Made by a program: the position numbers and the translations under genes. Under the pieces are notes generated by a model. That model did not search any database. It was given only the letters and a program-made list of their open reading frames with translations, and had not been told where the DNA came from. Below are positions 1,696 to 58,651 of a stretch of DNA of 64,000 bases, piece after piece (positions within the stretch are counted from its first letter, which is position 1; each line of letters opens with the position of its first letter). The stretch comes from Antedon bifida (taxonomy: Eukaryota > Echinodermata > Crinoidea > Comatulida > Antedonidae), in the NCBI GenBank assembly GCA_963402885.1, contig OY727097.1:22940001-23004000 (forward strand). The letters run 5' to 3'.

Positions 1696-3116
1696 CAAAT
1701 TGTTTTGGTTTGAATTTTTTTTATTTTTTTTTAAATTTTTATTACGAAGAACTGCAATTACACGTAAGATCCACTCGGAACTTTCCTTCTGTTGGTTCCG
1801 GCTCAACATCTTGATTCATGTTTTCAGCTGAAAGACGTCATTAACTTCATTATATTAAGGCTATCAATGCCTACGCTACGTGTAATCCTGATTGCTTGGT
1901 TTGCATCTTTAGTGTGCTCTGTGCTTTATAGATTACTGCCTCGGTACGTATAAGAAATGTGTCATAATTTTTTTGAAAAGTCTTGAGAATCTTCTATCAA
2001 CCACCAAAGCAACAAAATAAACTCTTGATGCGTTGTAATACCCCACGTTCAAATTGTTTTGGTTTTAATTTTTTTTTTATTTTAATACGAAAAGAAGAAC
2101 TGCAATTACACGTAAGATCCACTCGGAACTTTCCTTCTGTTGGTTCCGGCTTAACATCTTGATTCATGTTTTCAGCTGAAAGACGTCATTAACTTCATTA
2201 TATTAAGGCTATCAATGTCTACGCTACGTGTAATCCTGATTGATTGGTTTGATCTTCAGTGTGCTCTGTGCTTTATGGATTACTGCCTCGGTACGTATAA
2301 GAAATGTGTCATAATTGTTTTGAAAAAGTTTAGAATCTTCTAAAAAAATACATGTTTCAACCAACAAAGCAACAAAATAAACTCTTGATGCGTTGTAATA
2401 TCCCACGTTCAAATTGTTTTGGTTTAAATTTTTTTTTTTATTTTTAATACGAAAAGAAGAACTGCAATTACACGTAAGATCCACTCGGAACTTTCCTTCT
2501 GTTGGTTTCGGCTCAACATCTTGATTCATGTTTTCAGCTGAGAGACGTCATTAACTTCATTATATTAAGGCTACCAATGCCTACGCTACGTGTAATCCTG
2601 ATTAATTGGTTTGCATCTTCAGTGTGCTCTGTGCTTTATGGATTACTGCCTCGGTACGTATAAGAAATGTGTCATAATTGTTGTGAAAAGTCTTGAGAAT
2701 CTTCTAAAAAAATACATGTTTCAACCAACAAAGCAACAAAGTAAACTCTTGATGCATGCGTTGTAATACCCCACGTTCAAATTGTTTTGGTTTTAATTTT
2801 AATTTTTTTTAAATGTTAATACGAGAAGAAGAACTGCAATTACACGTAAGATCCACTCGGAACTTTCCTTCTGTTGGTTCCGGCTTAACATCTTGATTCA
2901 TGTTTTCAGCTGAAAGACGTCATTAACTTCATTATATTAAGGCTATCAATGCCTACGCTACGTGTAATCCTTATTGATTGGTTTGATCTTCAGTGTCCTC
3001 TGTGCTTTAAGAAATGTGTCATAATTGTTTTGAAAAGTCTTGAGAATCTTCTAAAAAAATACATGTTTCAACCACCAAAGCAACAAAATAAACTCTTGAT
3101 GCGTTGTAATACCCCG
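1696..3116 (-). repeat. Four tandem copies of the gene's 3' tail (unit A)
   Basis: There are four direct repeats of about 340-370 bp, starting at 1696, 2050, 2410 and 2778. Each carries, read on the - strand, the last ~15 codons and stop of the gene (through the FCC motif) followed by ~300 bp of 3' flank. The fourth copy runs directly into the real terminal exon, so the array is a serial duplication of the gene's 3' end. Poly-T/A tracts of variable length separate the copies. No AATAAA signal was found on the - strand next to the stop codon. Confidence 0.8.
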
Positions 3117-4279
3117 CGTTTTTGTTTAATTTGCGAGCTCTCATCACCATCTTCTATATTAACAGCGTTCACTTCGTTCCTCTTAACCTCATTCTCTTTA
3201 CTAACATTCTTCTTTTTTCTGAATAAGTTGCATCTCCTTTTCTTTTGCTTTTTCTGTGTTTTTGGAAGAACCACTGCAATATTACTTTCGATCACTTCTA
3301 ACTCCTGTGTTTTTGGAAGAACCACTGGAATATTACTTTCGATCACTTCTAACTGTGGTAAGTCTTCAGTTGTGGCGACAGAACCATTTCGTCTTCGTAC
3401 TCGGTTAAATTGGTAAATATCTAATTTGAAACCAACAAGGGAAGTCTAAATTATACATATGTCTATACAGGCCTATATATTAATTTTGATATAAATATTA
3501 ATTAAAATTTCACATTTTCGAATGTGAGTATTAATTTAGTGGGAAAGAAACATGCCAGTACTTGAGTGATGACCAGGAAAGAGTGACTCTTTCCTAGTGA
3601 TAACATTTTATTTGAGACTCAGGAACTTTGACAAAATGTGTTTGTAACCAATATTACAATGTATTTTTCGTATTTTATTAGGCCATATCCCTTTTTTAAA
3701 ATGAAGAATTACCTGTGAACGTGAAGTCGTAGCATGATTGATATTCATATTCTGACATTGAGGTATCAACAGAATAAAAACTCGCTGAATCATCATCATC
3801 TTCTTCTTCTTCTGACTGAATATCTGGAGTTTTCTTAGGAGATGTTTCTCTACAGTCGAGATAATGAGCTATGGAATCCGTCAGAGGGATTACAATTGCC
3901 GGAGCCTCCCACCAGTCTGCTTTATGATCTGATAATTCTATAATAACAAATATATACAAACATGCAGTGTAGCAATAATGTGATTTTCTTATAATATTTT
4001 GTTTATTAATATTTATCTTGTAAGCCTAACCCTCCTTGTATACTAATTAATAATGTCTAAATATAATGACACTTAATTAATGTTATTTTTAAAATTAAAG
4101 TACATATCATAAAATTTATGAATTACATATTCCCATCCCTATCTATAATAGCGGAAGAATAACATTTTTTGTTCAATCAACTCTACCTCAACAGTGATCA
4201 AACAGGCGCCGTAAACTCGCAATGCAATATAGAATATTTAACTAAAAACAATACAATTTTGCATACCTGTTTTCATCAT
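3068..4279 (-). CDS. Three-exon gene of unknown family, short form (196 aa), copy A
   Basis: I do not recognise the family. Coding exons on the - strand are 4279-4267 (ATGATGAAAACAG), 3937-3713 and 3420-3068. Introns are 3938-4266 and 3421-3712, both GT-AG and both phase 1, and the joined frame is 591 nt with a TGA stop. A stop lies in frame 24 nt upstream of the first ATG, and A is at -3, which supports the start. Segments in order: an N-terminal part with DWWEAP; an acidic run (SEEEEDDDD) followed by a Ser/Tyr-rich stretch; RVRRRNGS; two 17-residue repeats built on LEVIESNI(P/A)VVLPKTQ; a lysine/arginine-rich stretch (KKQKKRRCNLFRKKK); an acidic patch; and a C-terminus with FCCFGG. There is no signal peptide or membrane span. 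The paired cysteines after a basic amphipathic stretch could be S-acylated (inference). This copy lacks 61 internal codons found in copies C, D and F. Confidence 0.72.
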
Positions 4280-7102
4280 TGTGAATTCAATGGAAGTTTT
4301 TCAGTTAATACAGTATAAATTCGTTAAAAACAACACTTTTGCGAGAGAAATCAGTTAAGTTTGCCTGCTATGCTATTATAATAGACTAAGTTTGTTTGCC
4401 AGGGCAACGAAACGATGACAACGAGACAGCGCGTGCGTACAAGGCGCATTTCCGATGTGACGTGTGCATATAATCGCATAAGATAACGCGCTTCCGTCTA
4501 TATCGCATGATGATGATAATAATGCACGAACTCGAGGATTTGTATTACCTCACACCAGATCTGTAATAATACAGGGCCGTAGCCACCAGTACGGTTGGTA
4601 AGGTTTCAACCTGACCACTTTCCACAAAGAGGCCTTTGAAAACCCAGTGGCTTGAACAGAGAATAATAGTTCCCTTTCCTTGATAAACCGCACCACTTCG
4701 TTTTTTGCGGGACATCGCTGTAATACATCATATTTATTAATATATATTTATTTTAAAGTTTACTAGCTAGAGACAATGAAACAATGCAATATAATAATAA
4801 TAATACTCGGGGTCAACAGTTAATTTTTTATTTTGTTTTATTTACAATGTTATCGTTAATGTTAATGCGATAGGATGGAATGTCAAACTGCCAGCATGCA
4901 CCATGGCCCACCGAAATCATAATTTCCATGCATGTATGTGTCGGCGGAATATTTAAAAGTTAACGACAACATGACATCACATGTGCAACTCCTCCAGAAC
5001 CACCGTTCAAGAGATTTACCAACATTCTGATTAATATGTCACATCATGAGTATTAACTCAGACACACATCCTTTTGGGAGGTGGAATTGCAGAGCAGAAG
5101 CACTGCTGAATGAGCATGTATTCGTCAGGAAATTACTACCCCCTAAGACCAAATTACACAGACGGTAGCGTAACGGTTAGACTTGCCCCCAAGTCTGTAT
5201 TTATTGTCTTTTTTTTTATTTATTTGTTTTTATTTCGATCGCGATTTTTGTCTGAAAATACAGACTTGTGAAACACGTATAGAAATCGATTTGCAGACCG
5301 CAAACATCCGATACGAATGACGTAGGTTATCATACCGTATTTGGCTATATGGGGCGGGCGGTATGTAAATATGGATTTTGAATCAACCAATGATCATTTT
5401 GTTTCAAAATGAAAAAGATCGAATGCGTATAGTGCTGAATGTACGTTCAAGACAACAACTGTTGAAATATAAAATCGTGTTGCCAAGTTGTTTTGTTTAT
5501 TAATTGTTTAGTCCTGGCCTGGCCCTCCTTCGTAAGGCTACTCAACTCGTACGTATGACCTGCCAAATAAAACGCCAATAAGGTACATACCACCACCGAC
5601 CGGCACACAACAGGGCTACACCACCACATAGAACAGGACAGGGTCTGGGTGGGAATTAAATCAAATTATCTCCGCATAATAAATGATCCACATTCAATGT
5701 TTGATTTGCGGAGAAGCTAGCCTATCATGTCAAGACGAGTTTTCATGTTCTTGGGAAAAATCCCATCAAATGTTTACCAGACTACTATTATATAGGCATA
5801 TAAAATAATTTCTAGCCTTCAGAAACTTTCATCAATGTACCCAAAAGTATACAATGTCTAAACGTAACATAGCGCATGTCTTAGACGTTGAGGCTTTGAC
5901 ATTCTGAAATATGAATATTAAAACTGCGTACGAGTGAGTAGCCAATGGCATGCGGCTGAAACTAGTCAACTGGATAATTTATGCACCAAGAATTCTTGGA
6001 GTCAAACCACGTGACTTGTGCGTGTTTCCCCAGACCATGGATTAAAGAATTCTTTAATCCATGCCAAAGAATATATATCTCAAGAATGAGTAATCCGCGA
6101 TTTTCCCTGTAACAGTAATATTGTCCATGTGGTAGGGCGCCGCCATAAGTGAGGATGTATCTGGGATGTATACAACTTTTTGTGACGGTTTCACTAATCA
6201 AAGGCTGGACCACCGGTAGTATTTTCATGTTAAAAAATGTTATCAACTACATGCCAACATCATGTTAAATGCTGTTTGGATATTTAATTGTTCGTTTTAG
6301 GCAATTTATTTAGTAAAAACTTCCGTATAAACAGCTCGCTTTATCAACCGGGCGCTACGATAGCGTGACCGGGCGTGTTGGTGTTAATAAATGTTAATGA
6401 AATTTAACATTTTATCCTATTAATAACATGTATTTTATACTAATTTATATCATAAAAACAATACTTAATTTACCGGGCGTAGAGTAGTACGCGGCAATGG
6501 TAAAGAATAGGCCGTTGAGTAACGATTCGTTGATTTTTGGTGTTGCTGTGTTAGGCCTTTTTTGTGAACTAATTTAGCATGTTAGTAAATAATTGTCTGT
6601 AAAAGTGAATGTACACTAGTTTGTTAATAAATATGTATTATAAAATAGTTTACAATTGCAAAATATATTATCATAATTCTATTTAATGTGACATGTATAA
6701 TATCTATTAACTCAAGTCTTATTTAGTATGTATACATCCGCCCTTATGAGGGCGGGCATCACTCTCTGGAGCTCTCTGTTACAAATTTCTCATGCAAAAA
6801 TCGCGGAATACTCATTCTTGTGATATATATTCTTTGTCCATGCCCAGACAGACGGCGTATCCAAACTCAAGTAATACACGTATGAAACGCCATATGTGCA
6901 AAAATATTTATATTTTTACTAATATTAAGACAAAGCTCTGTCGTCTGGAGCCCAGACTACGTAACGGTAAGAAAGATATAGAATTTACACACAACGCGGA
7001 TGGGTTGTTCCCGTACAGAACAAGCTACGTGGTTTTCCGCTTATACCGTTATCTTTACATTAACAATTTAATCTCGGCTATATTCAATCCAGAAAAAAGC
7101 AT
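4280..7102. other. Gene-upstream region and intergenic block (end of unit A, start of unit B)
   Basis: No gene is supported here. The junction between tandem units lies near 4983. Visible structure includes a stem (5191-5202 pairing with 5256-5267, AAGTCTGTATTT) and a perfect 28-bp palindrome at 6036-6063 centred on GAATTC. Imperfect inverted arms lie at 6060-6115 and 6776-6843, with a 7-bp GC stem at 6738-6755 between them. The arms may bound a ~780-bp nonautonomous element. At the site used by the insertion in B and E (about 4785-4805) this unit has only a short TAA tract. Confidence 0.6.
4395..4408. promoter_or_regulatory. RFX X-box-like motif upstream of gene copy A
   Basis: TTTGCCAGGGCAAC lies about 116 nt upstream of the gene's ATG. 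It resembles the palindromic RFX X-box (GTTGCC-N2-GGCAAC) with one half-site mismatch. The same motif is at the same place in units B-E (for example 14049-14062 and 27284-27297), and with one change in F (58762-58775). The surrounding stretch is more CpG-rich and includes TGACGTG. Function is inferred from the motif only. Confidence 0.3.
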
Positions 7103-10100: not shown

Positions 10101-10411
10101 TAGGTACCGCATTGTTTTTAAAATATTACTCTTTGTTTTTAAGTCTATTAATGGCATGGCTCCAGAATATATTTCTGACATGCTTAGGCTGTATGTTCCC
10201 AGACGGAATCTGCGTTCTAGTGACACGCTGCTTCTACATCAACCTAAGTCTCACCACTCATGGGGGAGACAGAGCTTTCACCGTTACTGCTCCTCGTCTA
10301 TGGAATGCTCTACCGAGCTCTATCAGATTTTGCAAAACTGTTGATACTTTTAAAAAATTATTAAAAACACATTTATTCATTAAGGCATATGGAAATCATG
10401 AGGTTTCTTAA
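7103..10411 (+). pseudogene. LINE ORF2 (endonuclease + reverse transcriptase), broken, unit B
   Basis: Endonuclease motifs in order: NARSLRNK (before the first frameshift), SETWL, NIYRPP, FCGDFNIHMD and SDHFAIF. Reverse transcriptase motifs: LLDLSAAFDTVDHS (motif A), PQGSVLGP (B), YADDTQIY (C) and NFLKLNDEKTE (D). A CR1-like C-terminal region follows. The frame is lost near 7175-7185 and near 7983. It is lost again around 8633-8640 (a TGA at 8633-8635 followed by a shift), then by the MITE at 9348-9753, and again at about 10260-10270. All breaks except the MITE also occur in unit F, so the element was dead before amplification. This copy alone has Cys where the others have Phe near 8177. Confidence 0.85.
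9348..9753. mobile_element. 406-bp MITE with 30-bp perfect TIRs and 9-bp TSD (unit B)
   Basis: It begins AAAGAACTTATAACAC and ends with the exact 30-bp reverse complement. It is flanked by GGTGAAACC on both sides (9339-9347 and 9754-9762), and the uninterrupted site with a single GGTGAAACC is at 54307-54315 in unit F. The interior carries a direct duplication of about 86 bp (from 9454 and from 9540, each opening GAGTAGGGCGCCCGC). There is no coding capacity. A 9-bp duplication is typical of Mutator-like elements, which is the best guess; the family is not proven. Confidence 0.9.
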
Positions 10412-10698
10412 AGTTCTAGAATTGTATAGTATACTTTTTCCTGACCAGCATTATCTTTGGGGTGCCTCTGTCTTGGTTGTTGTCTCTGAGCACCCGGTCG
10501 TCTGTGGCAAGGCAAATGTGTATCCTGTTCCTTTGTTTGGTCACCTAGGTAGGGGTCCGGGACCGCGACAGAACGAGAACGGATGGGGACCCTCCAAAGA
10601 AATTGCATTTTATTTGTCGGGCATTTGTATGATTTGTTTTATCTTTTTTTTTAATGCGCCTTGAGCACTCTTGAGTGGTATGTGCGCTATAAAAATCC

Positions 10699-10751
<53 letters not shown>

Positions 10752-11015
10752 TGAAAATCTCATCAATTATTTATGATATTATGATAATTATTATTTTTTT
10801 ATCAACTTGTTTTTTTTTTTGCATGTTCTATACGAAATTAAATTAAATTTTTTCTTTAAATTATTTTCTTCAGACCTACGCAGCTGTTCTGTTTGTCTCG
10901 ATTCAAACCTTAGTTCATGATTTTATGAGCGAAACGTCTATTATGTAGATCATATAATCACACAGCTGGCTTTCAATTCAAAGTATGAATGCTGCCTCCT
11001 CAGTACATGCAATCT

Positions 11016-11170
11016 GTCTTGAGAATCCCCTTCATCCAACACAGCAAAATAAAATCTCATCATCATTACATTTTTGTTTTCATGAACGTGAAGTCATGAC
11101 AGACTTGCTATCCACTCTCTGACAGAAGTCTACAGAATAAAAACTTGCTGAATCCTAGTCGTCGTCGTAA
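11016..11170 (-). pseudogene. Degenerate fragment of the array gene (unit B)
   Basis: Counterpart of 1361-1515, with CCCC where unit A has CTCT at about 11027. The adjoining spacer (10751-11015, 11171-11350) shows nothing recognisable. Confidence 0.6.
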
Positions 11171-13933: not shown

Positions 13934-14690
13934 TGTGAATTCAATGGAAGTTTTTCAGTTAATACAGTATAAATTCGTTAAAAACAACAATTTTGCGAGA
14001 GAAATCAGTTAAGTTTGCCTGCTATGCTATTATAATAGACTAAGTTTGTTTGCCAGGGCAACGAAACGATGACAACGAGACAGCGCGTGCGTACAAGGCG
14101 CATTTCCGATGTGACGTGTGCATAATCGCATAAGATAACGCGCTTCCGTCTATATCGCATGATGATAATAATGCACGAACTCGAGGATTTGTATTACCTC
14201 ACACCAGATCTGTAATAATACAGGGCCGTAGCCACCAGTACGGTTGGTAAGGTTTCAACCTGACCACTTTCCACAAAGAGGCCTTTGAAAACCCAGTGGC
14301 TTGAACAGAGAATAATAGTTCCCTTTCCTTGATAAACCGCACCACTTCGTTTTTTGCGGGACATCGCTGTAATACATCATATTTATTAATATATATTTAT
14401 TTTAAAGTTTACTAGCTAGAGACAATGAAACAATGCAATATAATAATAATATTACATAGCCTATGTAAATACGTGAACGTGATTGGTTGAAACTGCGTCA
14501 CATGACTACCGCTGCGAGGATCGTAAATCGTATATATCCTCGAGAACGATGATATTGACCGATTAATTTTCGCGTAATTATCGTGTCCCCTTGTCATTAA
14601 ACATATACATTCTCGAGTTCGATGATATTGACTGTGTAATTTTCGTGTGGCAACACTCGCGTTTGCCGATAAATAAACAAAAGTCATCTA

Positions 14691-14762
14691 CTGGATTTGA
14701 ACTCGGGTGGAATTGTCACTCCATCGCAAGACAACGCTTCCACCGTTGCGCCACGCAGCTTG
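14691..14762 (-). repeat. tRNA-derived SINE-like segment (unit B insertion)
   Basis: On the - strand an A-box-like TGGCGCAACGGTGG (14753-14740) is followed by a B-box-like GAGTTCAAATCC (14704-14693). A 5-bp TTGTC/GACAA stem lies between them. The T-arm and acceptor stem do not pair well, so this is a tRNA relic or SINE head rather than a working tRNA gene. Confidence 0.5.
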
Positions 14763-14793
14763 CTTGAAGAAATTATTCATCTAAACTATTTAA

Positions 14794-16415
14794 AGGGGGG
14801 TTCCGGGTTTAAAATGAATAGTAAAAAATGTAAAATATATTTGTTTGTCTCTTGAACGGTAAAAGTTTCAATTTATATAAGCGCCCAGTGAAGCAGAACG
14901 AAGGCTGTGAAATGAGGCCAGATTACAAGTGCAGCTACGGCAAAATCACACTGTGGTTACAGAATAGGACATTCGTGAAATGGTCAATCTTCCGACGACT
15001 CGTTATCATTAACCATATCAATTACTTTTGTAAAATTATACTTATCTGATGTAATTTTAGTCGGTCTTCCCATTTATAAAGTCAATTTTTTATGAAAATC
15101 CATCAAAACAGTGAAAAATTAGATATGTTTGCACTTTACGTTTGCCGATTTTCGCACTGACTTAGGGAAAGCCTTCAAAATCAATGAAGCGTAACGTATA
15201 CATTCCTGCTGAGCGAGGAGAGCGAGACGACGATACACGTGCTCTCTCTGCCCATGCCTGGCATCGTCACGTGATAAGCAGATACAATATACAATACCAA
15301 ACTGGTCGGGTCGAGTATACCCCGTCTATAATCACAACATGAACGATGTACAGTATTTGATTGAAGGTCGACTCGACCTACCGGAATGGTATAGATAATA
15401 TAGCTCGAATGAGAGAGTTGGAATATTTTTAAACATATGAATATGATAAGTATTGCTAATTTTAAAAAGTGTAGCCTATAGTAAAAGGCCTGGTGGTATC
15501 AATTCGCATAGGGTCTACTACACTAGCTAGCTCAATTTTTAACTGGGCCGGATCGGCTAGGTCTCCTTCCTACTACCTGATCTACTTGCTTGATGCAGTA
15601 TCCGCTTTTTTGGAGAGTAAACTAGGCCTATTGTAGGCCTACTTATTAGACGATCGGGACACCATATACGTGCGGACGGCGATCGGACCTTGTTTTGCCT
15701 CAATATTTACAGCCGATTTTGTAGAACGTTTTAGGTTTAGATTGTTTAGGAGTTTGGTTGATAGGATGGGTTTGGAATCCACTGAGTTTTGTTATTAATG
15801 GGCCAATCGTTTAGTAGTAGGCTAGCTAGGCCCATGATGGCCCCAATGTTTTAGCGTAGCCATCGTGGCATGGAATCCCTAGTCAGAAATGGCTCTCACC
15901 CATGAATAAAATGATTTAGGCTAGGCCTAGCCTAGTATGTGAAGCCGATATACGATCTGTACTATTCGAGGTATAAAAATAGTATAATTTATGACTCCGT
16001 AATCTGTACTAAATTTTGTATTTCATTAAATGTCAAATAAATATATGCTACTACTGTTATTATTACACTTTAGGCCTAGCTTAGAAAATCTACAAAAAAA
16101 TGTATTTCACAATGATCGGGTGGTCGTCGTTTGACAGGGGAGAGAGATGCAAGTTGACAAACACAACGTACAAGCTTGACGTCGCGAGTTTGGAATCCAC
16201 TGATGACGTGATTTTGTTAATATCTCATGAATATTAATGAGCTTCCCTAAGCTGCTGAAAAACAGACTTTCCATGAATTTACCCTAAAATGTATATGAAA
16301 TTTAATTTTTTTAATTTCTTGTTATTACTTCTTCATTCTGACATGTCTATATTGTTATAATATTTTTTATTTATTAAATAAACGATATTTAAAATTTCAA
16401 ACCCAGAATCCCCCT
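14794..16415. mobile_element. 1622-bp nonautonomous DNA transposon with ~25-bp TIRs (unit B insertion)
   Basis: The ends are AGGGGGGTTCCGGGTTT at the left and AAACCCAGAATCCCCCT at the right, inverted and imperfect. TTAA borders both ends (14790-14793 and 16416-16419), as in Kolobok or piggyBac-type elements. AAACTAT before and ACTAT after the TTAAs is an alternative reading of the duplication. The interior has many AGGCCTA words and no supported coding region. Confidence 0.6.
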
Positions 16416-16607
16416 TTAAACTATGCATACATAGCGCCCTCATTTGTTATTAGTCCTCCCTAAATGTGATGAAACACCGTTTGTGATTGGTCAATACTCA
16501 CGGTAGTAACCTAGTAACTACGCGCTGAACATCCGGTGATTCGGCTAGCTCCTCGAAGAGAGAAGACGATGAATTGTTTATTCGGCCTACCCAGAGCCAT
16601 ATATATA

Positions 16608-17392
16608 AAGAGTTACGACATTGAAAATTAGAAGCCATTTTTGTGTCAAAGAATTCGCACGCTGAGGGCGCGCGCGTCTATTTTGTATAGCGTTTTCCTG
16701 TAGTTCATGCATTATTTTTAGATTTTTTTGTCTATGAAATAACGCTTATATTCCGTTTTTATTTTAGTACTTAATTTTATTAATGGTATTAATTTGGTAA
16801 CATATATATATTGTGTCTATAATAACAAAAGAATAAATGCTAGGGCCTACATGCAAGTCAGGATACATCAAAGCATGAACCAATACAAAAAACACACAAA
16901 TTCACCCCTCTTTTTATACAGTATATGGCTCTCTGTGTGTTTTTGACACAAGCTTTCAGAGACTCGTTCATCATTTCATTTGTAATAATTTGCCTTTATT
17001 ATTCTAATATTGTTCATACCCTATTCAATATATTAACAAATATATCCACGACACTCTATTATTTTATTTAGTCATCAAAGCATGCATTATGAATTGAAAA
17101 TATTACATAATTGTTGTTAATAGGACGTAGTTATGGGATGTTTCGTTCCAAAATCAATCAATCGAACTTTATAATGTACTAGCGCACGCGCGCGCAATAT
17201 TCTTTGCCGCAAGTACTTCTGTACGCTGTGCACATCGATATTTCACCGTAAAATGTGCAATTACATTTTGTTAAATATAAGAAAAAGTTTAAAGTATTTT
17301 CTTGCTCCTATACTTTACATGCATTAACGGAGACAAGTTTGACACAAATTGATCTGCATATCACGTGACTATAATCCAATGTCGTAACTCTT
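16608..17392. mobile_element. 785-bp MITE with 8-bp TSD, only in unit B
   Basis: It begins AAGAGTTACGACATTG and ends with the exact inverse. It is bordered by TATATATA on both sides (16600-16607 and 17393-17400). The matching position in unit E (49331-49340) is uninterrupted. It is AT-rich and noncoding. The 8-bp duplication suits hAT-like elements, but the TA-rich target also allows a 2-bp TA duplication with longer termini. Confidence 0.85.
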
Positions 17393-17654
17393 TATATATA
17401 TGGCTCTGGGCCTACCTGATTATAATATTATTATTAATAGGCTTATTGATGGAAATTCTTCTGTTAATTTAAACGACCTAGGCCTAAGTGAATATTTTAT
17501 TGCCAAGGAATCATTAATTAGTAATTATCTGTATCTTATTCTTCGCAAGGTAAGGTGTCTAGGCAGGAGGCTTGTTTACATACAATACAAATACTATAGA
17601 ATAGGAGGCCTAGCCTAGCTTCACCAGCAGACTTGTTCTTGGCTATATAATATA

Positions 17655-17844
17655 ACAGATATCGCCTTTTATATCGGTAAAATATAAGATTTAACATCCC
17701 CTCGGGATGATATTATGTTCTCGGGGAATTATATATCCCTCAGCTGCCGCTTCGGGATATATATATTCCCTCGAACATAATAATAATATCATTCCCTCGG
17801 GGATGTCAAATCTTATATTTCACCTCTAAGCAGGCAATATCTGT
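17655..17844. repeat. Foldback (long hairpin) element, unit B insertion
   Basis: The two halves are inverted copies, from ACAGATATCGCCT at the left to AGGCAATATCTGT at the right. Nested arms contain ATATAAGATTT, CCCTCGGGATGATATTATGTTC and GGGATATATATATTCCC around a short loop near 17750. It forms the right end of the composite insertion. An AATAAT expansion in the right arm is missing from unit E. Confidence 0.75.
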
Positions 17845-17852
17845 ATAATAAT

Positions 17853-23776: not shown

Positions 23777-23858
<82 letters not shown>

Positions 23859-24121: not shown

Positions 24122-24276
24122 GTCTTGAGAATCCCCTTCATCCAACACAGCAAAATAAAATCTCATCATCATTACATTTTTGTTTTCATGAACGTGAAGT
24201 CATGACAGGCTTGCTATCCACTCTCTGACAGAAGTCTACAGAATAAAAACTTGCTGAATCCTAGTCGTCGTCGTAA
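24122..24276 (-). pseudogene. Degenerate fragment of the array gene (unit C)
   Basis: Counterpart of 1361-1515, with GACAGGCTTGC where A, B and E have GACAGACTTGC; D and F share the G. The spacer on both sides is featureless. Confidence 0.6.
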
Positions 24277-25826: not shown

Positions 25827-27168
25827 CGTTTTTGTTTAATTTGCGAGCTCTCATCACCATCTTCTATATTAACAGCGTTCACTTCGTTCCTCTTAACCTC
25901 ATTCTCTTTACTAACATTCTTCTTTTTTCTGAATAAGTTGCATCTCCTTTTCTTTTGCTTTTTCTGTGTTTTTGGAAGAACCACTGCAATATTACTTTCG
26001 ATCACTTCTAACTCCTGTGTTTTTGGAAGAACCACTGGAATATTACTTTCGATCACTTCTAACTGTGGTAAGTCTTCAGTTGTGGCGACAGAACCATTTC
26101 GTCTTCGTACTCGGTTAAATTGGTAAATATCTAATTTGAAACCAACAAGGGAAGTCTAAAGTACACATATGTCTATACAGGCCTATATATTAATTTTGAT
26201 ATAAATATTAATTAAAATTTCACATTTTCGAATGTGAGTATTTAGTGGGAAAGAAACATGCCAGTACTTGAGTGATGACCAGGAAAGAGTGACTCTTTCC
26301 TAGTGATAACATTTTATTTGAGACTCAGGAACTTTGACAAAATGTGTTTGTAACCAATATTACAATGTATTTTTCGTATTTTATTAGGCCATATCCCTTT
26401 TTTAAAATGAAGAATTACCTGTGAACGTGAAGTCGTAGCATGATTGATATTCATATTCTGACATTGAGGTATCAACAGAATAAAAACTCGCTGAATCATC
26501 ATCATCTTCTTCTTCTTCTGACTGAATATCTGGAGTTTTCTTAGGAGATGTTTCTCTACTAGAAAAGGATCGCTCGGTGTCATATACAGATTCGTTAGTG
26601 TAATCCTTTTGCATCATCCAGACACACTTGGCGCACATTTCACTGCACGCACGATGTCGGACCACTTTGGTTGATCGACATCGGCCTTCAATCGGGTCAG
26701 TCTTCGGATAGTTTCGGTAGTACCAAAATGGTCTGGGATCACAGTCGAGATAATGAGCTATGGAATCCGTCAGAGGGATTACAATTGCCGGAGCCTCCCA
26801 CCAGTCTGCTTTATGATCTGATAATTCTATAATAACAAATATATACAAACATGCAGTGTAGCAATAATGTGATTTTCTTATAATATTTTGTTTATTAATA
26901 TTTATCTTGTAAGCCTAACCCTCCTTGTATACTAATTAATAATGTCTAAATATAATGACACTTAATTAATGTTATTTTTAAAATTAAAGTACATATCATA
27001 AAATTTATGAATTACATATTCCCATCCCTATCTATAATAGCGGAAGAATAACATTTTTTGTTCAATCAACTCTACCTCAACAGTGATCAAACAGGCGCCG
27101 TAAACTCGCAATGCAATATAGAATATTTAACTAAAAACAATACAATTTTGCATACCTGTTTTCATCAT
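25778..27168 (-). CDS. Three-exon gene of unknown family, long form (257 aa), copy C
   Basis: Coding exons on the - strand are 27168-27156, 26826-26419 and 26130-25778; introns are GT-AG and phase 1, and the joined frame is 774 nt. Relative to copy A it carries residues 34-94. These add cysteines at 54, 65, 69 and 72 to Cys33 (spacing C-x20-C-x10-C-x3-C-x2-C) plus an aromatic PFWYYRNY patch. The ACSEMCAKC cluster could bind a metal, but no known zinc-finger family was recognised. Residues 108-115 are acidic, 164-196 hold the two 17-residue repeats, 197-211 are basic and 253-254 are the terminal cysteines. Confidence 0.75.
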
Positions 27169-33620: not shown

Positions 33621-33696
<76 letters not shown>

Positions 33697-35664: not shown

Positions 35665-37006
35665 CGTTTTTGTTTAATTTGCGAGCTCTCATCACCATCT
35701 TCTATATTAACAGCGTTCACTTCGTTCCTCTTAACCTCATTCTCTTTACTAACATTCTTCTTTTTTCTGAATAAGTTGCATCTCCTTTTCTTTTGCTTTT
35801 TCTGTGTTTTTGGAAGAACCACTGCAATATTACTTTCGATCACTTCTAACTCCTGTGTTTTTGGAAGAACCACTGGAATATTACTTTCGATCACTTCTAA
35901 CTGTGGTAAGTCTTCAGTTGTGGCGACAGAACCATTTCGTCTTCGTACTCGGTTAAATTGGTAAATATCTAATTTGAAACCAACAAGGGAAGTCTAAAGT
36001 ACACATATGTCTATACAGGCCTATATATTAATTTTGATATAAATATTAATTAAAATTTCACATTTTCGAATGTGAGTATTTAGTGGGAAAGAAACATGCC
36101 AGTACTTGAGTGATGACCAGGAAAGAGTGACTCTTTCCTAGTGATAACATTTTATTTGAGACTCAGGAACTTTGACAAAATGTGTTTGTAACCAATATTA
36201 CAATGTATTTTTCGTATTTTATTAGGCCATATCCCTTTTTTAAAATGAAGAATTACCTGTGAACGTGAAGTCGTAGCATGATTGATATTCATATTCTGAC
36301 ATTGAGGTATCAACAGAATAAAAACTCGCTGAATCATCATCATCTTCTTCTTCTTCTGACTGAATATCTGGAGTTTTCTTAGGAGATGTTTCTCTACTAG
36401 AAAAGGATCGCTCGGTGTCATATACAGATTCGTTAGTGTAATCCTTTTGCATCATCCAGACACACTTGGCGCACATTTCACTGCACGCACGATGTCGGAC
36501 CACTTTGGTTGATCGACATCGGCCTTCAATCGGGTCAGTCTTCGGATAGTTTCGGTAGTACCAAAATGGTCTGGGATCACAGTCGAGATAATGAGCTATG
36601 GAATCCGTCAGAGGGATTACAATTGCCGGAGCCTCCCACCAGTCTGCTTTATGATCTGATAATTCTATAATAACAAATATATACAAACATGCAGTGTAGC
36701 AATAATGTGATTTTCTTATAATATTTTGTTTATTAATATTTATCTTGTAAGCCTAACCCTCCTTGTATACTAATTAATAATGTCTAAATATAATGACACT
36801 TAATTAATGTTATTTTTAAAATTAAAGTACATATCATAAAATTTATGAATTACATATTCCCATCCCTATCTATAATAGCGGAAGAATAACATTTTTTGTT
36901 CAATCAACTCTACCTCAACAGTGATCAAACAGGCGCCGTAAACTCGCAATGCAATATAGAATATTTAACTAAAAACAATACAATTTTGCATACCTGTTTT
37001 CATCAT
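35616..37006 (-). CDS. Three-exon gene of unknown family, long form (257 aa), copy D
   Basis: Coding exons on the - strand are 37006-36994, 36664-36257 and 35968-35616. The protein is identical to copy C as far as I can read, including the cysteine-rich module. Confidence 0.75.
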
Positions 37007-43427: not shown

Positions 43428-43483
<56 letters not shown>

Positions 43484-46665: not shown

Positions 46666-47422
46666 TGTGAATTCAATGGAAGTTTTTCAGTTAATACAGT
46701 ATAAATTCGTTAAAAACAACAATTTTGCGAGAGAAATCAGTTAAGTTTGCCTGCTATGCTATTATAATAGACTAAGTTTGTTTGCCAGGGCAACGAAACG
46801 ATGACAACGAGACAGCGCGTGCGTACAAGGCGCATTTCCGATGTGACGTGTGCATAATCGCATAAGATAACGCGCTTCCGTCTATATCGCATGATGATAA
46901 TAATGCACGAACTCGAGGATTTGTATTACCTCACACCAGATCTGTAATAATACAGGGCCGTAGCCACCAGTACGGTTGGTAAGGTTTCAACCTGACCACT
47001 TTCCACAAAGAGGCCTTTGAAAACCCAGTGGCTTGAACAGAGAATAATAGTTCCCTTTCCTTGATAAACCGCACCACTTCGTTTTTTGCGGGACATCGCT
47101 GTAATACATCATATTTATTAATATATATTTATTTTAAAGTTTACTAGCTAGAGACAATGAAACAATGCAATATAATAATAATATTACATAGCCTATGTAA
47201 ATACGTGAACGTGATTGGTTGAAACTGCGTCACATGACTACCGCTGCGAGGATCGTAAATCGTATATATCCTCGAGAACGATGATATTGACCGATTAATT
47301 TTCGCGTAATTATCGTGTCCCCTTGTCATTAAACATATACATTCTCGAGTTCGATGATATTGACTGTGTAATTTTCGTGTGGCAACACTCGCGTTTGCCG
47401 ATAAATAAACAAAAGTCATCTA

Positions 47423-47494
47423 CTGGATTTGAACTCGGGTGGAATTGTCACTCCATCGCAAGACAACGCTTCCACCGTTGCGCCACGCAGCTTG
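47423..47494 (-). repeat. tRNA-derived SINE-like segment (unit E insertion)
   Basis: Same A-box-like and B-box-like pair as at 14691-14762. Confidence 0.5.
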
Positions 47495-47525
47495 CTTGAA
47501 GAAATTATTCATCTAAACTATTTAA

Positions 47526-49147
47526 AGGGGGGTTCCGGGTTTAAAATGAATAGTAAAAAATGTAAAATATATTTGTTTGTCTCTTGAACGGTAAAAGTTT
47601 CAATTTATATAAGCGCCCAGTGAAGCAGAACGAAGGCTGTGAAATGAGGCCAGATTACAAGTGCAGCTACGGCAAAATCACACTGTGGTTACAGAATAGG
47701 ACATTCGTGAAATGGTCAATCTTCCGACGACTCGTTATCATTAACCATATCAATTACTTTTGTAAAATTATACTTATCTGATGTAATTTTAGTCGGTCTT
47801 CCCATTTATAAAGTCAATTTTTTATGAAAATCCATCAAAACAGTGAAAAATTAGATATGTTTGCACTTTACGTTTGCCGATTTTCGCACTGACTTAGGGA
47901 AAGCCTTCAAAATCAATGAAGCGTAACGTATACATTCCTGCTGAGCGAGGAGAGCGAGACGACGATACACGTGCTCTCTCTGCCCATGCCTGGCATCGTC
48001 ACGTGATAAGCAGATACAATATACAATACCAAACTGGTCGGGTCGAGTATACCCCGTCTATAATCACAACATGAACGATGTACAGTATTTGATTGAAGGT
48101 CGACTCGACCTACCGGAATGGTATAGATAATATAGCTCGAATGAGAGAGTTGGAATATTTTTAAACATATGAATATGATAAGTATTGCTAATTTTAAAAA
48201 GTGTAGCCTATAGTAAAAGGCCTGGTGGTATCAATTCGCATAGGGTCTACTACACTAGCTAGCTCAATTTTTAACTGGGCCGGATCGGCTAGGTCTCCTT
48301 CCTACTACCTGATCTACTTGCTTGATGCAGTATCCGCTTTTTTGGAGAGTAAACTAGGCCTATTGTAGGCCTACTTATTAGACGATCGGGACACCATATA
48401 CGTGCGGACGGCGATCGGACCTTGTTTTGCCTCAATATTTACAGCCGATTTTGTAGAACGTTTTAGGTTTAGATTGTTTAGGAGTTTGGTTGATAGGATG
48501 GGTTTGGAATCCACTGAGTTTTGTTATTAATGGGCCAATCGTTTAGTAGTAGGCTAGCTAGGCCCATGATGGCCCCAATGTTTTAGCGTAGCCATCGTGG
48601 CATGGAATCCCTAGTCAGAAATGGCTCTCACCCATGAATAAAATGATTTAGGCTAGGCCTAGCCTAGTATGTGAAGCCGATATACGATCTGTACTATTCG
48701 AGGTATAAAAATAGTATAATTTATGACTCCGTAATCTGTACTAAATTTTGTATTTCATTAAATGTCAAATAAATATATGCTACTACTGTTATTATTACAC
48801 TTTAGGCCTAGCTTAGAAAATCTACAAAAAAATGTATTTCACAATGATCGGGTGGTCGTCGTTTGACAGGGGAGAGAGATGCAAGTTGACAAACACAACG
48901 TACAAGCTTGACGTCGCGAGTTTGGAATCCACTGATGACGTGATTTTGTTAATATCTCATGAATATTAATGAGCTTCCCTAAGCTGCTGAAAAACAGACT
49001 TTCCATGAATTTACCCTAAAATGTATATGAAATTTAATTTTTTTAATTTCTTGTTATTACTTCTTCATTCTGACATGTCTATATTGTTATAATATTTTTT
49101 ATTTATTAAATAAACGATATTTAAAATTTCAAACCCAGAATCCCCCT
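47526..49147. mobile_element. 1622-bp nonautonomous DNA transposon with TIRs (unit E insertion)
   Basis: Same length and ends as 14794-16415, with TTAA at 47522-47525 and 49148-49151. Confidence 0.6.
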
Positions 49148-49321
49148 TTAAACTATGCATACATAGCGCCCTCATTTGTTATTAGTCCTCCCTAAATGTG
49201 ATGAAACACCGTTTGTGATTGGTCAATACTCACGGTAGTAACCTAGTAACTACGCGCTGAACATCCGGTGATTCGGCTAGCTCCTCGAAGAGAGAAGACG
49301 ATGAATTGTTTATTCGGCCTA

Positions 49322-49349
49322 CCCAGAGCCATATATATATGGCTCTGGG
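49322..49349. repeat. 28-bp perfect palindrome, empty target of the 785-bp MITE
   Basis: The half-site CCCAGAGCCATATA is followed by its exact inverse. In unit B the MITE sits in the TATATATA core of this palindrome. Confidence 0.9.
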
Positions 49350-49593
49350 CCTACCTGATTATAATATTATTATTAATAGGCTTATTGATGGAAATTCTTC
49401 TGTTAATTTAAACGACCTAGGCCTAAGTGAATATTTTATTGCCAAGGAATCATTAATTAGTAATTATCTGTATCTTATTCTTCGCAAGGTAAGGTGTCTA
49501 GGCAGGAGGCTTGTTTACATACAATACAAATACTATAGAATAGGAGGCCTAGCCTAGCTTCACCAGCAGACTTGTTCTTGGCTATATAATATA

Positions 49594-49777
49594 ACAGATA
49601 TCGCCTTTTATATCGGTAAAATATAAGATTTAACATCCCCTCGGGATGATATTATGTTCTCGGGGAATTATATATCCCTCAGCTGCCGCTTCGGGATATA
49701 TATATTCCCTCGAACATAATATCATTCCCTCGGGGATGTCAAATCTTATATTTCACCTCTAAGCAGGCAATATCTGT
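49594..49777. repeat. Foldback element (unit E insertion)
   Basis: Counterpart of 17655-17844, 6 bp shorter because the right arm lacks AATAAT. Confidence 0.75.
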
Positions 49778-49785
49778 ATAATAAT

Positions 49786-52082: not shown

Positions 52083-54964
52083 AGGTCCAGAGTAAAAGCA
52101 CTATCACATCTTAATTTTGGCGTTCTAAATGCACGTTCACTGCGTAATAAGTGTGATTGTGGATCTAGTTGGTAGCTATAATCTAGATGTAGTGGCGGTG
52201 TCTGAAACCTGGTTAAGGCAAGATGATGATCTTGTGATTGGAGATATAACTCCACTTGGATATCGTTTTGTGCATGTCCCTAGGGTAGAAAAAACAGGGG
52301 GTGGTGTTGGAATTCTGTCTAAGTCTAGCTTAGTTGTAAACATGAAAACTGATGTACATACATATGCATCATTTGAGGCTATACATGTGCAGATTACGTC
52401 TAACTCGAAATCTCTTCGTTTAGTTAACATATACCGACCACCAATCTTGTCTGTTACAAAATTCCTCAATGATTTTGAAAAAATGTTGTTTGACTATATT
52501 CTCTTTTCGGCTGAAATTGTCTTTTGTGGAGATTTTAATATCCATATGGATAATACTAAAAATGTGGCAGCAAATAGATTTAAAACAATGCTTAGATCGT
52601 TTGGTCTCCAGCAGCATATAAATGAACCCACACACTGTGGGCACTGCCTTGACCTTATAATCACTAGAGATGATCTACTGCTCCCGGATGTTAAGATACA
52701 TCCTGGCCTGTCAGATCATTTTGCCATATTTTGCAAGTTTGATCTTAAACGGCCCACAACCCGTAAAACTGTAAGGAAAAGTCGCAACCTAAAACAAATT
52801 GATATTGAGAAATTCCAAAATGACATTCAAGCGTGTGTGTCTAATATAACCGATGTAAGTGTGATTCTTGAAGATAGTGTAGAAAACTATTCTCATCTCA
52901 GAGCTGTACTTGATTTACATGCGCCAGTTCAGAAAAAAACAATTAGGCAAAAGGAAGCTAACCGTGGTATACAGATGAAATTCGATCTGAAAGGAAATTA
53001 CGTCGTCAACTTGAACGTAAGTGGATGAAATCAAAGCTTCTTAAGGATAGACAGGAATACTGTGACCAAAGATGTATTGTAAATGGACTGATTGAAAAGG
53101 CCAAGACGCGGTATTACTCTAGTCTGGTTAGTGACTGCACAGGTGATCAAAAGACATTTTTTGATTTAGTAAATAAACTTTTACATCGTTCCAAGTCCAA
53201 GTCTGTCTCAGATGAAGCTCTTGCTGAAAGATTTTCTGTTTTTTTTATAAATAAAATTAAATCAATTCGTGATTCACTAGAAAATGAAAATACTGCAGAA
53301 GTTACAACTGCTTCTGGTAAATGTATAAATATAAATAAATCTTATGATTTAACTAGGTCCATACAGCTTTCTCAGTTCGAACCTGCAAGTGAGGAGGAAA
53401 TTCTAAATATTGTCAAAAATTCTCCCTCAAAATCGTGTGCACTTGACCCGGTACCAACTTCACTGATAAAGAAATGTACTTCTGCATTTATTCCATTAAT
53501 CACACATATTGTAAATAAGTCTCTTGAAAGTGGTTCTTTCCCAGAGTCTCTTAAAGTCACTCATGTTCGACCCACATTGAAAAAAATAGGTCTAGATCCA
53601 TGAGATTCTGAAAAACTACAGACCTATCTCGAATCTTAGTTTTTTAGGAAAAATAATTGAGAAGGTTGTTTCTAAACGGATATTGTCGCATGTACAAAAC
53701 CATAGTCTACTTGATCCGTATCAATCTGCCTATAAAGTGCATCATAGTACTGAAACTGCATTACTTCGTGTAAATAACGATATCCTACGTGCAATGGATG
53801 ATGGAAAGCTAACTGCTCTAGTATTATTAGACTTAAGTGCAGCATTTGATACGGTTGACCATTCCGTGTTGTTAAATAGACTCAGTACGTATATTGGTAT
53901 TGAAGGAAAAGCACTTGATTGGTGTCGGTCATATTTGGAAAAAAGGCCTCAACACGTATGTATTGGTGATGATATCTCAACAGCTTCTTTTTTAAACTTT
54001 TCGGTACCACAAGGATCTGTTCTTGGGCCGCAATGGTTCACAATTTATTTACACCCAATACGGGATATCATTAGTAAATATGATCTGTACTATCATGTTT
54101 ACGCTGATGATACTCAGATTTATATTTCTTTTAAACCTACAATGACACACATTGACATTTCTTTGGAACTGCTCCAACATTGTATCCATGAATTGCGTGT
54201 CTGGATGAAAAACAACTTTCTTAAATTAAATGATGAAAAAACAGAATATATTCTCTTTGGATCAAAGCTGCAGTTGGAAAAACTGCCACCAAGTTTTATT
54301 TACATTGGTGAAACCCAAATAGACCCGGCTAGGCAGGTTAGAAATCTAGGGGTTGAAATGGATGCGGGTATGACTATGATTTCTCATATCTCAAAAACTA
54401 TTTCTACGTCGTCTTTTCACTTACGAAACATCCGAAGGATTCGAAAGTTTATTAATGAGGCAGCAGCTAAACAACTTGTTCATGCTTTTGTCACTTCACG
54501 ACTGGATATGGGAAACTCATTGCTATATGGGCTACCACAAAAACAACTCCACAGGCTTCAGCTTATTCAAAATACAGCGGCACGAGTTGTTAAAAAACTA
54601 CCAAGATATGCACACATATCAAATACCTTGGAAAATTTGCATTGGCTTCTTGTTAGGTACCGCATTGTTTTTAAAATATTACTCTTTGTTTTTAAGTCTA
54701 TTAATGGCATGGCTCCAGAATATATTTCTGACATGCTTAGGCTGTATGTTCCCAGACGGAATCTGCGTTCTAGTGACACGCTGCTTCTACATCAACCTAA
54801 GTCTCACCACTCATGGGGGAGACAGAGCTTTCACCGTTACTGCTCCTCGTCTATGGAATGCTCTACCGAGCTCTATCAGATTTTGCAAAACTGTTGATAC
54901 TTTTAAAAAATTATTAAAAACACATTTATTCATTAAGGCATATGGAAATCATGAGGTTTCTTAA
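52083..54964 (+). pseudogene. LINE ORF2, broken, least damaged copy (unit F)
   Basis: The reverse transcriptase and following region form one 404-codon open frame (53683-54897) containing motifs A (LLDLSAAFDTVDHS), B (PQGSVLGP), C (YADD) and D. The element is still inactive: it has the ancestral breaks near 52155-52165, 52963, 53601 and 54808-54820. Confidence 0.85.
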
Positions 54965-55288
54965 AGTTCTAGAATTGTATAGTATACTTTTTCCTGACCA
55001 GCATTATCTTTGGGGTGCCTCTGTCTTGGTTGTTGTCTCTGAGCACCCGGTCGTCTGTGGCAAGGCAAATGTGTATCCTGTTCCTTTGTTTGGTCACCTA
55101 GGTAGGGGTCCGGGACCGCGACAGAACGAGAACGGATGGGGACCCTCCAAAGAAATTGCATTTTATTTGTCGGGCATTTGTATGATTTGTTTTATCTTTT
55201 TTTTTAATGCGCCTTGAGCACTCTTGAGTGGTATGTGCGCTATAAAAATCCTGTTATTATTATTATTATTATTTTTATTATTATTATA
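52083..55288 (+). mobile_element. Non-LTR retrotransposon (CR1/Jockey-group), unit F, no MITE
   Basis: This is the only copy without the 406-bp MITE: the pre-insertion site at 54307-54315 is intact. The TTA tail (55254-55288) is the shortest and has a TTTTTA interruption. A 12-bp deletion near 53177 is unique to this copy. Confidence 0.85.
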
Positions 55289-55553
55289 TTGATAATCTCA
55301 TCAATTATTTATGATATTATGATAATTATTATTTTTTTATCAACTTGTTTTTTTTTTTGCATGTTCTATACGAAATTAAATTAAATTTCTTCTTTAAATT
55401 ATTTTCTTCAGACCTACGCAGCTGTTCTGTTTGTCTCGATTCAAACCTTAGTTCATGATTTTATGAGCGAAACGTCTATTATGTAGATCATATAATCACA
55501 CAGCTGGCTTTCAATTCAAAGTATGAATGCTGCCTCCTCAGTACAAGCAATCT

Positions 55554-55708
55554 GTCTTGAGAATCCCCTTCATCCAACACAGCAAAATAAAATCTCATCA
55601 TCATTACATTTTTGTTTTCATGAACGTGAAGTCATGACAGGCTTGCTATCCACTCTCTGACAGAAGTCTACAGAATAAAAACTTGCTGAATCCTAGTCGT
55701 CGTCGTAA
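55554..55708 (-). pseudogene. Degenerate fragment of the array gene (unit F)
   Basis: Counterpart of 1361-1515; it has the CAAGCAATC and GACAGGC variants seen in C and D. The flanking spacer holds nothing else. Confidence 0.6.
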
Positions 55709-55888
55709 GTATACTAATAATAATACATGGGATAACAAAAGTTATATTTCATTTCGTTTTATTTACTTTTATTTCAAACTACCAGCATGGCTATGCTAAT
55801 AATCAAAGTCAATATTATCTTTTCCAAGCTCGATGTATCGAAGAGTAGGCCTAATTTAAGGTTAACAGCAAATTAAGTTAAGTCAAGT

Positions 55889-57310
55889 CAAATTGTTTTG
55901 GTTTGAATTTTTTTTATTTATTTTTTAATTTTTATTACGAAGAACTGCAATTACACGTAAGATCCACTCGGAACTTTCCTTCTGTTGGTTCCGGCTCAAC
56001 ATCTTGATTCATGTTTTCAGCTGAAAGACGTCATTAACTTCATTATATTAAGGCTATCAATGCCTACGCTACGTGTAATCCTGATTGCTTGGTTTGCATC
56101 TTTAGTGTGCTCTGTGCTTTATAGATTACTGCCTCGGTACGTATAAGAAATGTGTCATAATTTTTTTGAAAAGTCTTGAGAATCTTCTATCAACCACCAA
56201 AGCAACAAAATAAACTCTTGATGCGTTGTAATACCCCACGTTCAAATTGTTTTGGTTTTAATTTTTTTTTTTATTTTAATACGAAAAGAAGAACTGCAAT
56301 TACACGTAAGATCCACTCGGAACTTTCCTTCTGTTGGTTCCGGCTTAACATCTTGATTCATGTTTTCAGCTGAAAGACGTCATTAACTTCATTATATTAA
56401 GGCTATCAATGTCTACGCTACGTGTAATCCTGATTGATTGGTTTGATCTTCAGTGTGCTCTGTGCTTTATGGATTACTGCCTCGGTACGTATAAGAAATG
56501 TGTCATAATTGTTTTGAAAAAGTTGAGAATCTTCTAAAAAAATACATGTTTCAACCAACAAAGCAACAAAATAAACTCTTGATGCGTTGTAATATCCCAC
56601 GTTCAAATTGTTTTGGTTTAAAATTTTTTTTTTATTTTTAATACGAAAAGAAGAACTGCAATTACACGTAAGATCCACTCGGAACTTTCCTTCTGTTGGT
56701 TTCGGCTCAACATCTTGATTCATGTTTTCAGCTGAGAGACGTCATTAACTTCATTATATTAAGGCTACCAATGCCTACGCTACGTGTAATCCTGATTAAT
56801 TGGTTTGCATCTTCAGTGTGCTCTGTGCTTTATGGATTACTGCCTCGGTACGTATAAGAAATGTGTCATAATTGTTGTGAAAAGTCTTGAGAATCTTCTA
56901 AAAAAATACATGTTTCAACCAACAAAGCAACAAAGTAAACTCTTGATGCATGCGTTGTAATACCCCACGTTCAAATTGTTTTGGTTTTAATTTTAATTTT
57001 TTTTAAATTTTAATACGAGAAGAAGAACTGCAATTACACGTAAGATCCACTCGGAACTTTCCTTCTGTTGGTTCCGGCTTAACATCTTGATTCATGTTTT
57101 CAGCTGAAAGACGTCATTAACTTCATTATATTAAGGCTATCAATGCCTACGCTACGTGTAATCCTTATTGATTGGTTTGATCTTCAGTGTCCTCTGTGCT
57201 TTAAGAAATGTGTCATAATTGTTTTGAAAAGTCTTGAGAATCTTCTAAAAAAATACATGTTTCAACCACCAAAGCAACAAAATAAACTCTTGATGCGTTG
57301 TAATACCCCG
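55889..57310 (-). repeat. Four tandem gene-tail repeats (unit F)
   Basis: Full-length array, close to units A, B and E, differing mainly in poly-T/A tract lengths. Confidence 0.8.
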
Positions 57311-58651
57311 CGTTTTTGTTTAATTTGCGAGCTCTCATCACCATCTTCTATATTAACAGCGTTCACTTCGTTCCTCTTAACCTCATTCTCTTTACTAACA
57401 TTCTTCTTTTTTCTGAATAAGTTGCATCTCCTTTTCTTTTGCTTTTTCTGTGTTTTTGGAAGAACCACTGCAATATTACTTTCGATCACTTCTAACTCCT
57501 GTGTTTTTGGAAGAACCACTGGAATATTACTTTCGATCACTTCTAACTGTGGTAAGTCTTCAGTTGTGGCGACAGAACCATTTCGTCTTCGTACTCGGTT
57601 AAATTGGTAAATATCTAATTTGAAACCAACAAGGGAAGTCTAAATTATACATATGTCTATACAGGCCTATATATTAATTTTGATATAAATATTAATTAAA
57701 AATTTCACATTTTCGAATGTGAGTATTTAGTGGGAAAGAAACATGCCAGTACTTGAGTGATGACCAGGAAAGAGTGACTCTTTCCTAGTGATAACATTTT
57801 ATTTGAGACTCAGGAACTTTGACAAAATGTGTTTGTAACCAATATTACAATGTATTTTTCGTATTTTATTAGGCCATATCCCTTTTTTAAAATGAAGAAT
57901 TACCTGTGAACGTGAAGTCGTAGCATGATTGATATTCATATTCCGACATTGAGGTATCAACAGAATAAAAACTCGCTGAATCATCATCATCTTCTTCTTC
58001 TTCTGACTGAATATCTGGAGTTTTCTTAGGAGATGTTTCTCTACTAGAAAAGGATCGCTCGGTGTCATATACAGATTCGTTAGTGTAATCCTTTTGCATC
58101 ATCCAGACACACTTGGCGCACATTTCACTGCATGCACGATGTCGGACCACTTTGGCCGATCGGCATCGACATCGGCCTTCAATCGGGTCAGTCTTCGGAC
58201 AGTTTCGGTAGTACCAAAATGGTCTGGGATCACAGTCGAGATAACGAGTTATGGAGTCCGTCAGAGGGATTTCAATTGCCGGAGCCTCCCACCAGTCTGC
58301 TTTATGATCTGATAATTCTATAATAACAAATATATTCACATGCAGTGTCGAAATAATGTCCTTTTCTTATAATAATTATAACATTTTTTTTACTAATATT
58401 TATTTTGTAAGCCTAACCCTCCTTGTATACTAATTAATAATGTCTAAATATAATGACACTTAATTAATGTTATTTCTTAAGAACATATCATAAATTTTAT
58501 GAATATTCCACAACACACAGCGGAGGAATAACACATTTAGTTGTTCAATCAACTCTACCTCAACAGTGATCATTCAGGCGCCGTAAACTTGCAATGCAAT
58601 ATAGCATATTTAACTAAAAACAATACAATTTTGAATACCTGTTTTCATCAT
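57262..58651 (-). CDS. Three-exon gene of unknown family, long form (259 aa), diverged copy F
   Basis: Coding exons on the - strand are 58651-58639, 58317-57904 and 57614-57262; splice signals and phase 1 are kept and the joined frame is 780 nt. Exon 3 encodes the same residues as the other copies. Exon 2 differs from C/D by Val20Glu, Ala28Thr, His29Arg, Tyr44Cys and Thr57Ala. It also has a duplicated Cys-Arg inside the cysteine-rich module, so this copy has two more cysteines. The changes concentrate at the 5' end of exon 2 and continue into intron 1 and the upstream region. Confidence 0.75.

Follow-up and report, generated by a model that had tools for sequence, protein, structure and literature searches.

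Is the open reading frame that recurs along a tandem array in the crinoid Antedon bifida a gene, or does it look intact only because the array is young? The window analysed here is a stretch of 64,000 nucleotides (contig OY727097.1, hereafter C10, positions 22,940,001-23,004,000, forward strand; assembly GCA_963402885.1) from a genome of 315.6 Mb in 27 contigs, and it holds six copies of a predicted three-exon gene. Our reading, to which we give a probability of roughly 0.78, is that the predicted gene is real and belongs to an apparently lineage-restricted echinoderm protein-coding family. In total, 13 predicted copies were found, in two clusters on one chromosome: ten in a recent array that includes the window copies, and three in an older cluster. 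What argues for a real gene is this older cluster, which is divergent yet has kept the exon architecture, and whose reading frame is under purifying selection.

The array comprises ten units (C10:~22,894,200-22,999,360), six inside the window and four to the left of it. The exon structure given in a preliminary description of the window, made from the sequence alone, is borne out in all six window copies (u5-u10; Table 1), and the junctions 4267/3937 and 3713/3420 that it proposed for u5 are correct. Each copy lies on the minus strand and starts with a coding exon of only 13 nt, ATGATGAAAACAG, which is followed directly by GTAT and which in the array encodes MMKT plus one base. Two phase-1 GT-AG introns follow in 6/6 window copies, and the sole stop of each joined frame is terminal. 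The joined frames of all ten array copies are open (196, 196, 197, 196, 196, 197, 257, 257, 197 and 259 aa, the last six being u5-u10); GT and AG are retained at both introns in all ten, and the exon-1 donor reads GTATGC in nine and GTATTC in u10. Every window copy, however, also has a 175-aa frame that overlaps exon 3 on the antisense strand, so that an open frame by itself says little here.

The regularity of the copies is equally poor evidence. The preliminary description held that six copies with identical structure were too consistent for chance, an argument that is invalid because the units are recent homogenised duplicates. In 1,250 nt of the 3' half of the gene (ten copies) and 940 nt of its 5' flank (nine copies), with the 5' half of u10 excluded, pairs differ by 0-7 substitutions, and the intact structure is therefore inherited rather than maintained. 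Nine of the ten copies are near-identical, and the tenth, u10 at the array edge, combines a divergent 5' half with a 3' half that is homogenised with the other units; the ten open frames thus amount to nearly one observation. In the 5' half, u10 differs from u7 by 6.8% substitutions in intron 1 and by 4.8% and 5.2% in two flank segments, with 26 insertions or deletions (indels) in 815 nt. Near-identity begins in the later part of exon 2 and runs onward, as would be expected if gene conversion or a crossover had taken place within that exon. At the level of sequence, the comparison demonstrates an array that evolves through unit duplication and homogenisation.

What, then, speaks for a gene? 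We searched the whole genome with the 257-aa protein of the long copies (E up to 10), using a search that scores its best candidates only. Of the 52 matches among the candidates scored, three are relatives of exon 3 (C10:26,064,554, 26,069,688 and 26,074,185; E 0.025-0.058), two are weak lysine-rich stretches, and the rest belong to the array, C-terminal repeats included. The matches at C12:11,710,807 and C10:3,512,731 (E 0.145) both fall on the same lysine-rich stretch and were set aside as chance. The exon-3 relatives mark a second cluster of three copies (C10:26,063,254-26,074,535), 3.1 Mb from the array. In the reciprocal genome search, all 16 matches among the candidates scored fell into these two clusters, with E 0.0105-0.0162 from one cluster to the other.

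All three second-cluster copies start with an exon of 13 coding nt, ATGAATATAAAAG, which encodes MNIK and is followed by the donor GTATGC; exons 2 and 3 come next, both in phase 1. For a 13-nt exon running from ATG to AG/GTR the expected count per 600 nt is 0.019, and its GTATGC form occurs 0 times in a control pool of 158,000 bases (79 kb, both strands). The second cluster thus resembles the array in its first exon, its donor and its two phase-1 introns, and also in the protein, through the block EGRxR...C-x3-C-A-x-C-x-W, the stretches VIExxIPVxxPK and QKKQxKR, and a basic amphipathic C-terminus with cysteines. It differs in having about 35 fewer residues before the block and in ending ...SCFC, where the array proteins have ...CCFGG. 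Protein identity between the clusters is 27-28%. The exon-3 similarity has a score of 102, whereas the best of 2000 shuffles attains 60 (0/2000 reach 102), and the similarity found in exon 2, by local alignment, falls in a block of 26 residues inside a 61-aa segment that distinguishes the long from the short copies; this segment scores 58 against the second cluster, a value likewise reached by 0/2000 shuffles.

Comparison of the three second-cluster copies establishes purifying selection on the predicted reading frame in this older cluster. The ratio of nonsynonymous to synonymous substitution rates (dN/dS) is 0.24, 0.34 and 0.38 in the three pairs (Fisher p 0.0014, 0.0045 and 0.0087), which are not independent of one another, and exonic indels number 1, 1 and 0 per pair (of 6 nt) against 8.1, 9.7 and 12.1 expected from the introns. 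Shared exon layout and purifying selection together thus lend support to the earlier claim of a real gene without a recognised domain. The sense frame also has the highest coding score of the six frames for exon 2 (0.281) and exon 3 (0.201), the score having been trained on 933 codons of flanking genes, so that some of the top-scoring flank frames are training data.

Several observations weigh against a real gene family. The cross-cluster E-values of the whole-genome searches are individually weak (0.01-0.06); exon 2 outside the 61-aa segment matches the second cluster no better than shuffled sequence does (250/2000 shuffles reach its score); and the 61-aa segment alone has a coding score of 0.161 in frame versus 0.173 and 0.155 in other frames. 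Moreover, u7 and u10 differ by 5 nonsynonymous and 4 synonymous changes, without a synonymous excess, although the array copies have diverged too little for selection to be tested; of the dN/dS comparison across copies that the preliminary description had proposed, it is the second cluster that is informative. These changes would also fit an array at 22.9 Mb that is dead or dying, its copies segmentally duplicated with a long interspersed nuclear element (LINE) and open only through their youth, while the gene still functions at 26.06 Mb. In units so near-identical, open frames are expected without selection; the conserved block is missing from seven of the ten copies, the units contain a decayed relic and C-terminal repeats, and u10 has lost the G at donor position +5. 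The indels, however, tell against decay. Length changes in the coding sequence of the ten copies measure 183, 6 and 3 nt, all multiples of three, whereas the flanks and intron 1 of u7 and u10 also hold indels of 1, 2, 4, 5, 7 and 8 nt. Over exon 1 and the first 200 nt of exon 2, u10 differs from u7 by 1 indel (6 nt) against 6.8 expected from intron 1 and the flank (Poisson P 0.009), and the frame is kept in 2.5% of neutral simulations of the divergent part of the u10 exons; substitutions there amount to 4.0%, only slightly below the intron. With splice dinucleotides preserved throughout the array as well, we consider a dying array unlikely.

The more radical possibility, that there is no gene and that the frames are lucky joins in near-identical repeats, draws on the non-independence of the copies and on the antisense frame, which is even longer than the sense frame of exon 3. 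It does not account for a second cluster that at such low identity has the same three-exon layout, the same 13-nt first exon and purifying selection; through this cluster we reject it as very improbable. Alternatively, the gene might belong not to the host but to a mobile element, either the LINE, whose endonuclease and reverse-transcriptase frames lie in the units on the opposite strand, or another transposon of the unit, four of the ten units carrying a further variable insert. We reject this reading, which seems to us scarcely credible, because the relatives found are not dispersed but lie in two tandem clusters on one chromosome only; in addition, the second cluster sits among genes for G-protein-coupled receptors (GPCRs) and apextrin-type genes, and the gene models have phase-1 introns predicted to be spliced. 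A real, apparently lineage-restricted gene family remains the reading we prefer.

What distinguishes the short from the long copies of this family? The 183-bp segment encoding the 61 residues is missing, in frame, from 7/10 array copies. Since the cysteine block that it carries is common to the array and the second cluster, the short form arose by deletion. The short copies may be working variants, or most of the array may be losing function, and we keep both readings.

Searches for known relatives agree with the earlier failure to recognise a domain. Hidden Markov model searches of Pfam, at E up to 10, recognised no family in any of five spliced proteins, two from the array and three from the second cluster, and among rough gene pieces gave nothing except one match below the cut-off (E 0.099; second-cluster exon 3). 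For the 257-aa protein there was no sequence match in the PDB at E up to 10, and the best of four profile matches had E 1.6. Pattern scans gave 318 and 600 matches in viral contigs and 571 in prokaryote genomes, none of which was confirmed as a relative; with six and two short peptide patterns, the reach of these scans is limited. Nothing on this gene turned up in the literature, where no search was aimed at the protein itself. We file the predicted genes as a lineage-restricted gene family in a tandem array, undescribed in Pfam; the "undescribed system" of the preliminary description exceeds the evidence, which is for a small orphan protein family with 13 copies in two clusters.

In both clusters the proteins have an acidic stretch rich in serine, a basic stretch and, at the C-terminus, an amphipathic segment that contains cysteines, with helical moments of 0.63 for RGVLQRIKSLF and 0.65 for DRIRSALKKMF. 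No signal peptide is apparent by eye. AlphaFold models of single exons have low confidence (mean predicted local distance difference test, pLDDT, 43.2 and 59.6); in exon 3, residues 96-111 are modelled as a helix at the C-terminus. Such models are compatible with disorder, and also with the missing alignment. From these motifs only, we tentatively propose a cytosolic, largely disordered, adaptor-like protein anchored by cysteines. The product would be tethered to a membrane jointly by its polybasic region, by the helix at its C-terminus and by S-acylated cysteines (LFCCFGG / MFSCFC), and the cysteine block could serve as an element that binds a partner or a metal. Short copies would then still be tethered but lack the binding element; they might act as dosage or competitor forms, or be decaying. 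A bolder and distinctly improbable extension is that the array consists mostly of decoys without the block, in which seven of the ten copies express a membrane-tethered tail and damp the long forms; unequal crossing-over would make this an antagonist system tunable in dosage, possibly tied to the GPCRs that are co-duplicated with the second cluster.

Table 1. Predicted gene copies and other features of the array units. Positions are those of the window unless given on C10.
Feature	Position	Strand	Details
Copy u5, short form, 196 aa	3068..4279	minus	exon 1 4279-4267, exon 2 3937-3713, exon 3 3420-3068
Copy u6, short form, 197 aa	12723..13933	minus	exon 1 13933-13921, exon 2 13591-13364, exon 3 13075-12723
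Copy u7, long form, 257 aa	25778..27168	minus	exon 1 27168-27156, exon 2 26826-26419, exon 3 26130-25778
Copy u8, long form, 257 aa	35616..37006	minus	exon 1 37006-36994, exon 2 36664-36257, exon 3 35968-35616
Copy u9, short form, 197 aa	45455..46665	minus	exon 1 46665-46653, exon 2 46323-46096, exon 3 45807-45455
Copy u10, long form, 259 aa, array edge	57262..58651	minus	exon 1 58651-58639, exon 2 58317-57904, exon 3 57614-57262
183-bp (61-aa) exon-2 segment, u7	26558..26740	minus	with block EGRxR...C-x3-C-A-x-C-x-W
Equivalent of 61-aa segment, u8	36396-36578	minus	
Equivalent of 61-aa segment, u10	58043-58231	minus	with 6-nt in-frame insertion
~360-bp tandem repeat, u5	1709..3090	minus	last codons and 3' untranslated region; four copies, the first being the end of the gene itself
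Decayed relic, u7	24122..24260	minus	end of exon 2 fused to end of exon 3; read by eye
Variable insert, window	14459-17844 and 47190-49778		
Variable insert, left of window	C10:22,897,501-22,900,034 and 22,919,001-22,925,484		

Besides the gene, the array units hold a short tandem repeat, a gene relic and the LINE. All ten units have four occurrences of the end motif of the ~360-bp repeat, the three extra copies lying between gene and relic. In u7, the farthest repeat copy still reads ERGVLQRIKSLFCCFGG followed by a stop, by eye. Counted from the stop codon of the u7 gene, ATTAAA variants occur from 248 nt onward and AATAAA appears first at 1,274 nt. The decayed older gene fragment of the preliminary description is indeed present, as the fused relic listed in Table 1, and its start motif was found in 9/10 units. 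In the LINE, which had been described as riddled with shared breaks, two frame breaks are common to all five full window copies (e.g. 8048/7982 and 8635/8628) and a third to four of them; the last copy, in the edge unit, has a single reverse-transcriptase frame of 433 aa (53596-54897) where the other four share that break. The variable insert occupies the same site in the four units that carry it, is 2.5-6.5 kb long and differs by internal blocks; alignments at the site overlap by ~9 bp.

The neighbourhoods of the two clusters were compared as well. Beside the array lies a frame for a rhodopsin-type GPCR with one in-frame stop (C10:22,892,187-22,893,113; L012:2187-3113; 7tm_1, E 1.6e-12). Near the second cluster, six related single-frame GPCR open reading frames stand in tandem on the plus strand (C10:26,041,045-26,067,281; L060-L062); two of the six were checked in Pfam and both are 7tm_1, all six are related by BLASTP, and the one at 26,045,624 is short. 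The final pair, with 97.6% identity, is interleaved with the first two second-cluster copies, so that a GPCR is linked to two of the three. The array-side frame has no BLASTP match to the six at E 1e-3; we therefore dropped a linked GPCR as a common unit of both clusters, and do not take the GPCR neighbourhood as evidence of shared origin. An apextrin-type sequence adjoins the second cluster on the minus strand (C10:26,075,316-26,075,867; L063; ApeC, PF16977, E 6.5e-39), stretches resembling it by eye occur at ~26,070.8-26,071.9 kb, and two further open reading frames in this region have no Pfam match.

The mitochondrial code and base composition indicate an echinoderm and probably a crinoid. 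Contig C27 (15,844 bp) is the mitochondrion, since the sole COX1 match falls on it; at conserved positions of COX1, AAA stands for N, AGA and AGG for S, and ATA for I. Its GC content is 26.9%, and ND1 and ND2, identified by eye, are encoded on the other strand from COX1. Crinoid mitogenomes are AT-rich. The mitogenome of the crinoid Poliometra prolixa measures 15,916 bp and has a somewhat higher G+C content, 31.1% (PMC10478607). Among 20 nuclear and other contigs surveyed for length, seven exceed 20 Mb and one measures 19.4 Mb; with C10 (32.5 Mb) these nine add up to 242.6 of the 315.6 Mb, so that some 11-13 chromosomes are likely, and crinoids have 11.

Lineage-restricted tandem families are a known kind, but whether such predictions are genes often goes unproven. 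Here a single genome supplies the proof, through a divergent cluster that shares the exon architecture. The family can be tested, since it offers two cysteine motifs for mutation and long and short copies that contrast naturally; should the short copies be expressed, they would offer a simple case of array turnover altering both the amount of one protein and the domains it contains.

How does this family compare with known systems? Sp185/333 (SpTrf) is a tandem immune gene family of sea urchins, whose genes have two exons and a secretory leader. Compared by description only, the array differs from it in having three coding exons, the first of which encodes four residues and no apparent leader; it is like Sp185/333 in being an echinoderm tandem family of near-identical units in which exon segments are present or absent in frame. 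The proteins of both clusters have no recognised domain of any lipid-anchored adaptor, and would at most work like one. In sequence they resemble S-acylated or prenylated peripheral membrane adaptors in combining a polybasic stretch with an amphipathic helix beside CC or CxC at the C-terminus.

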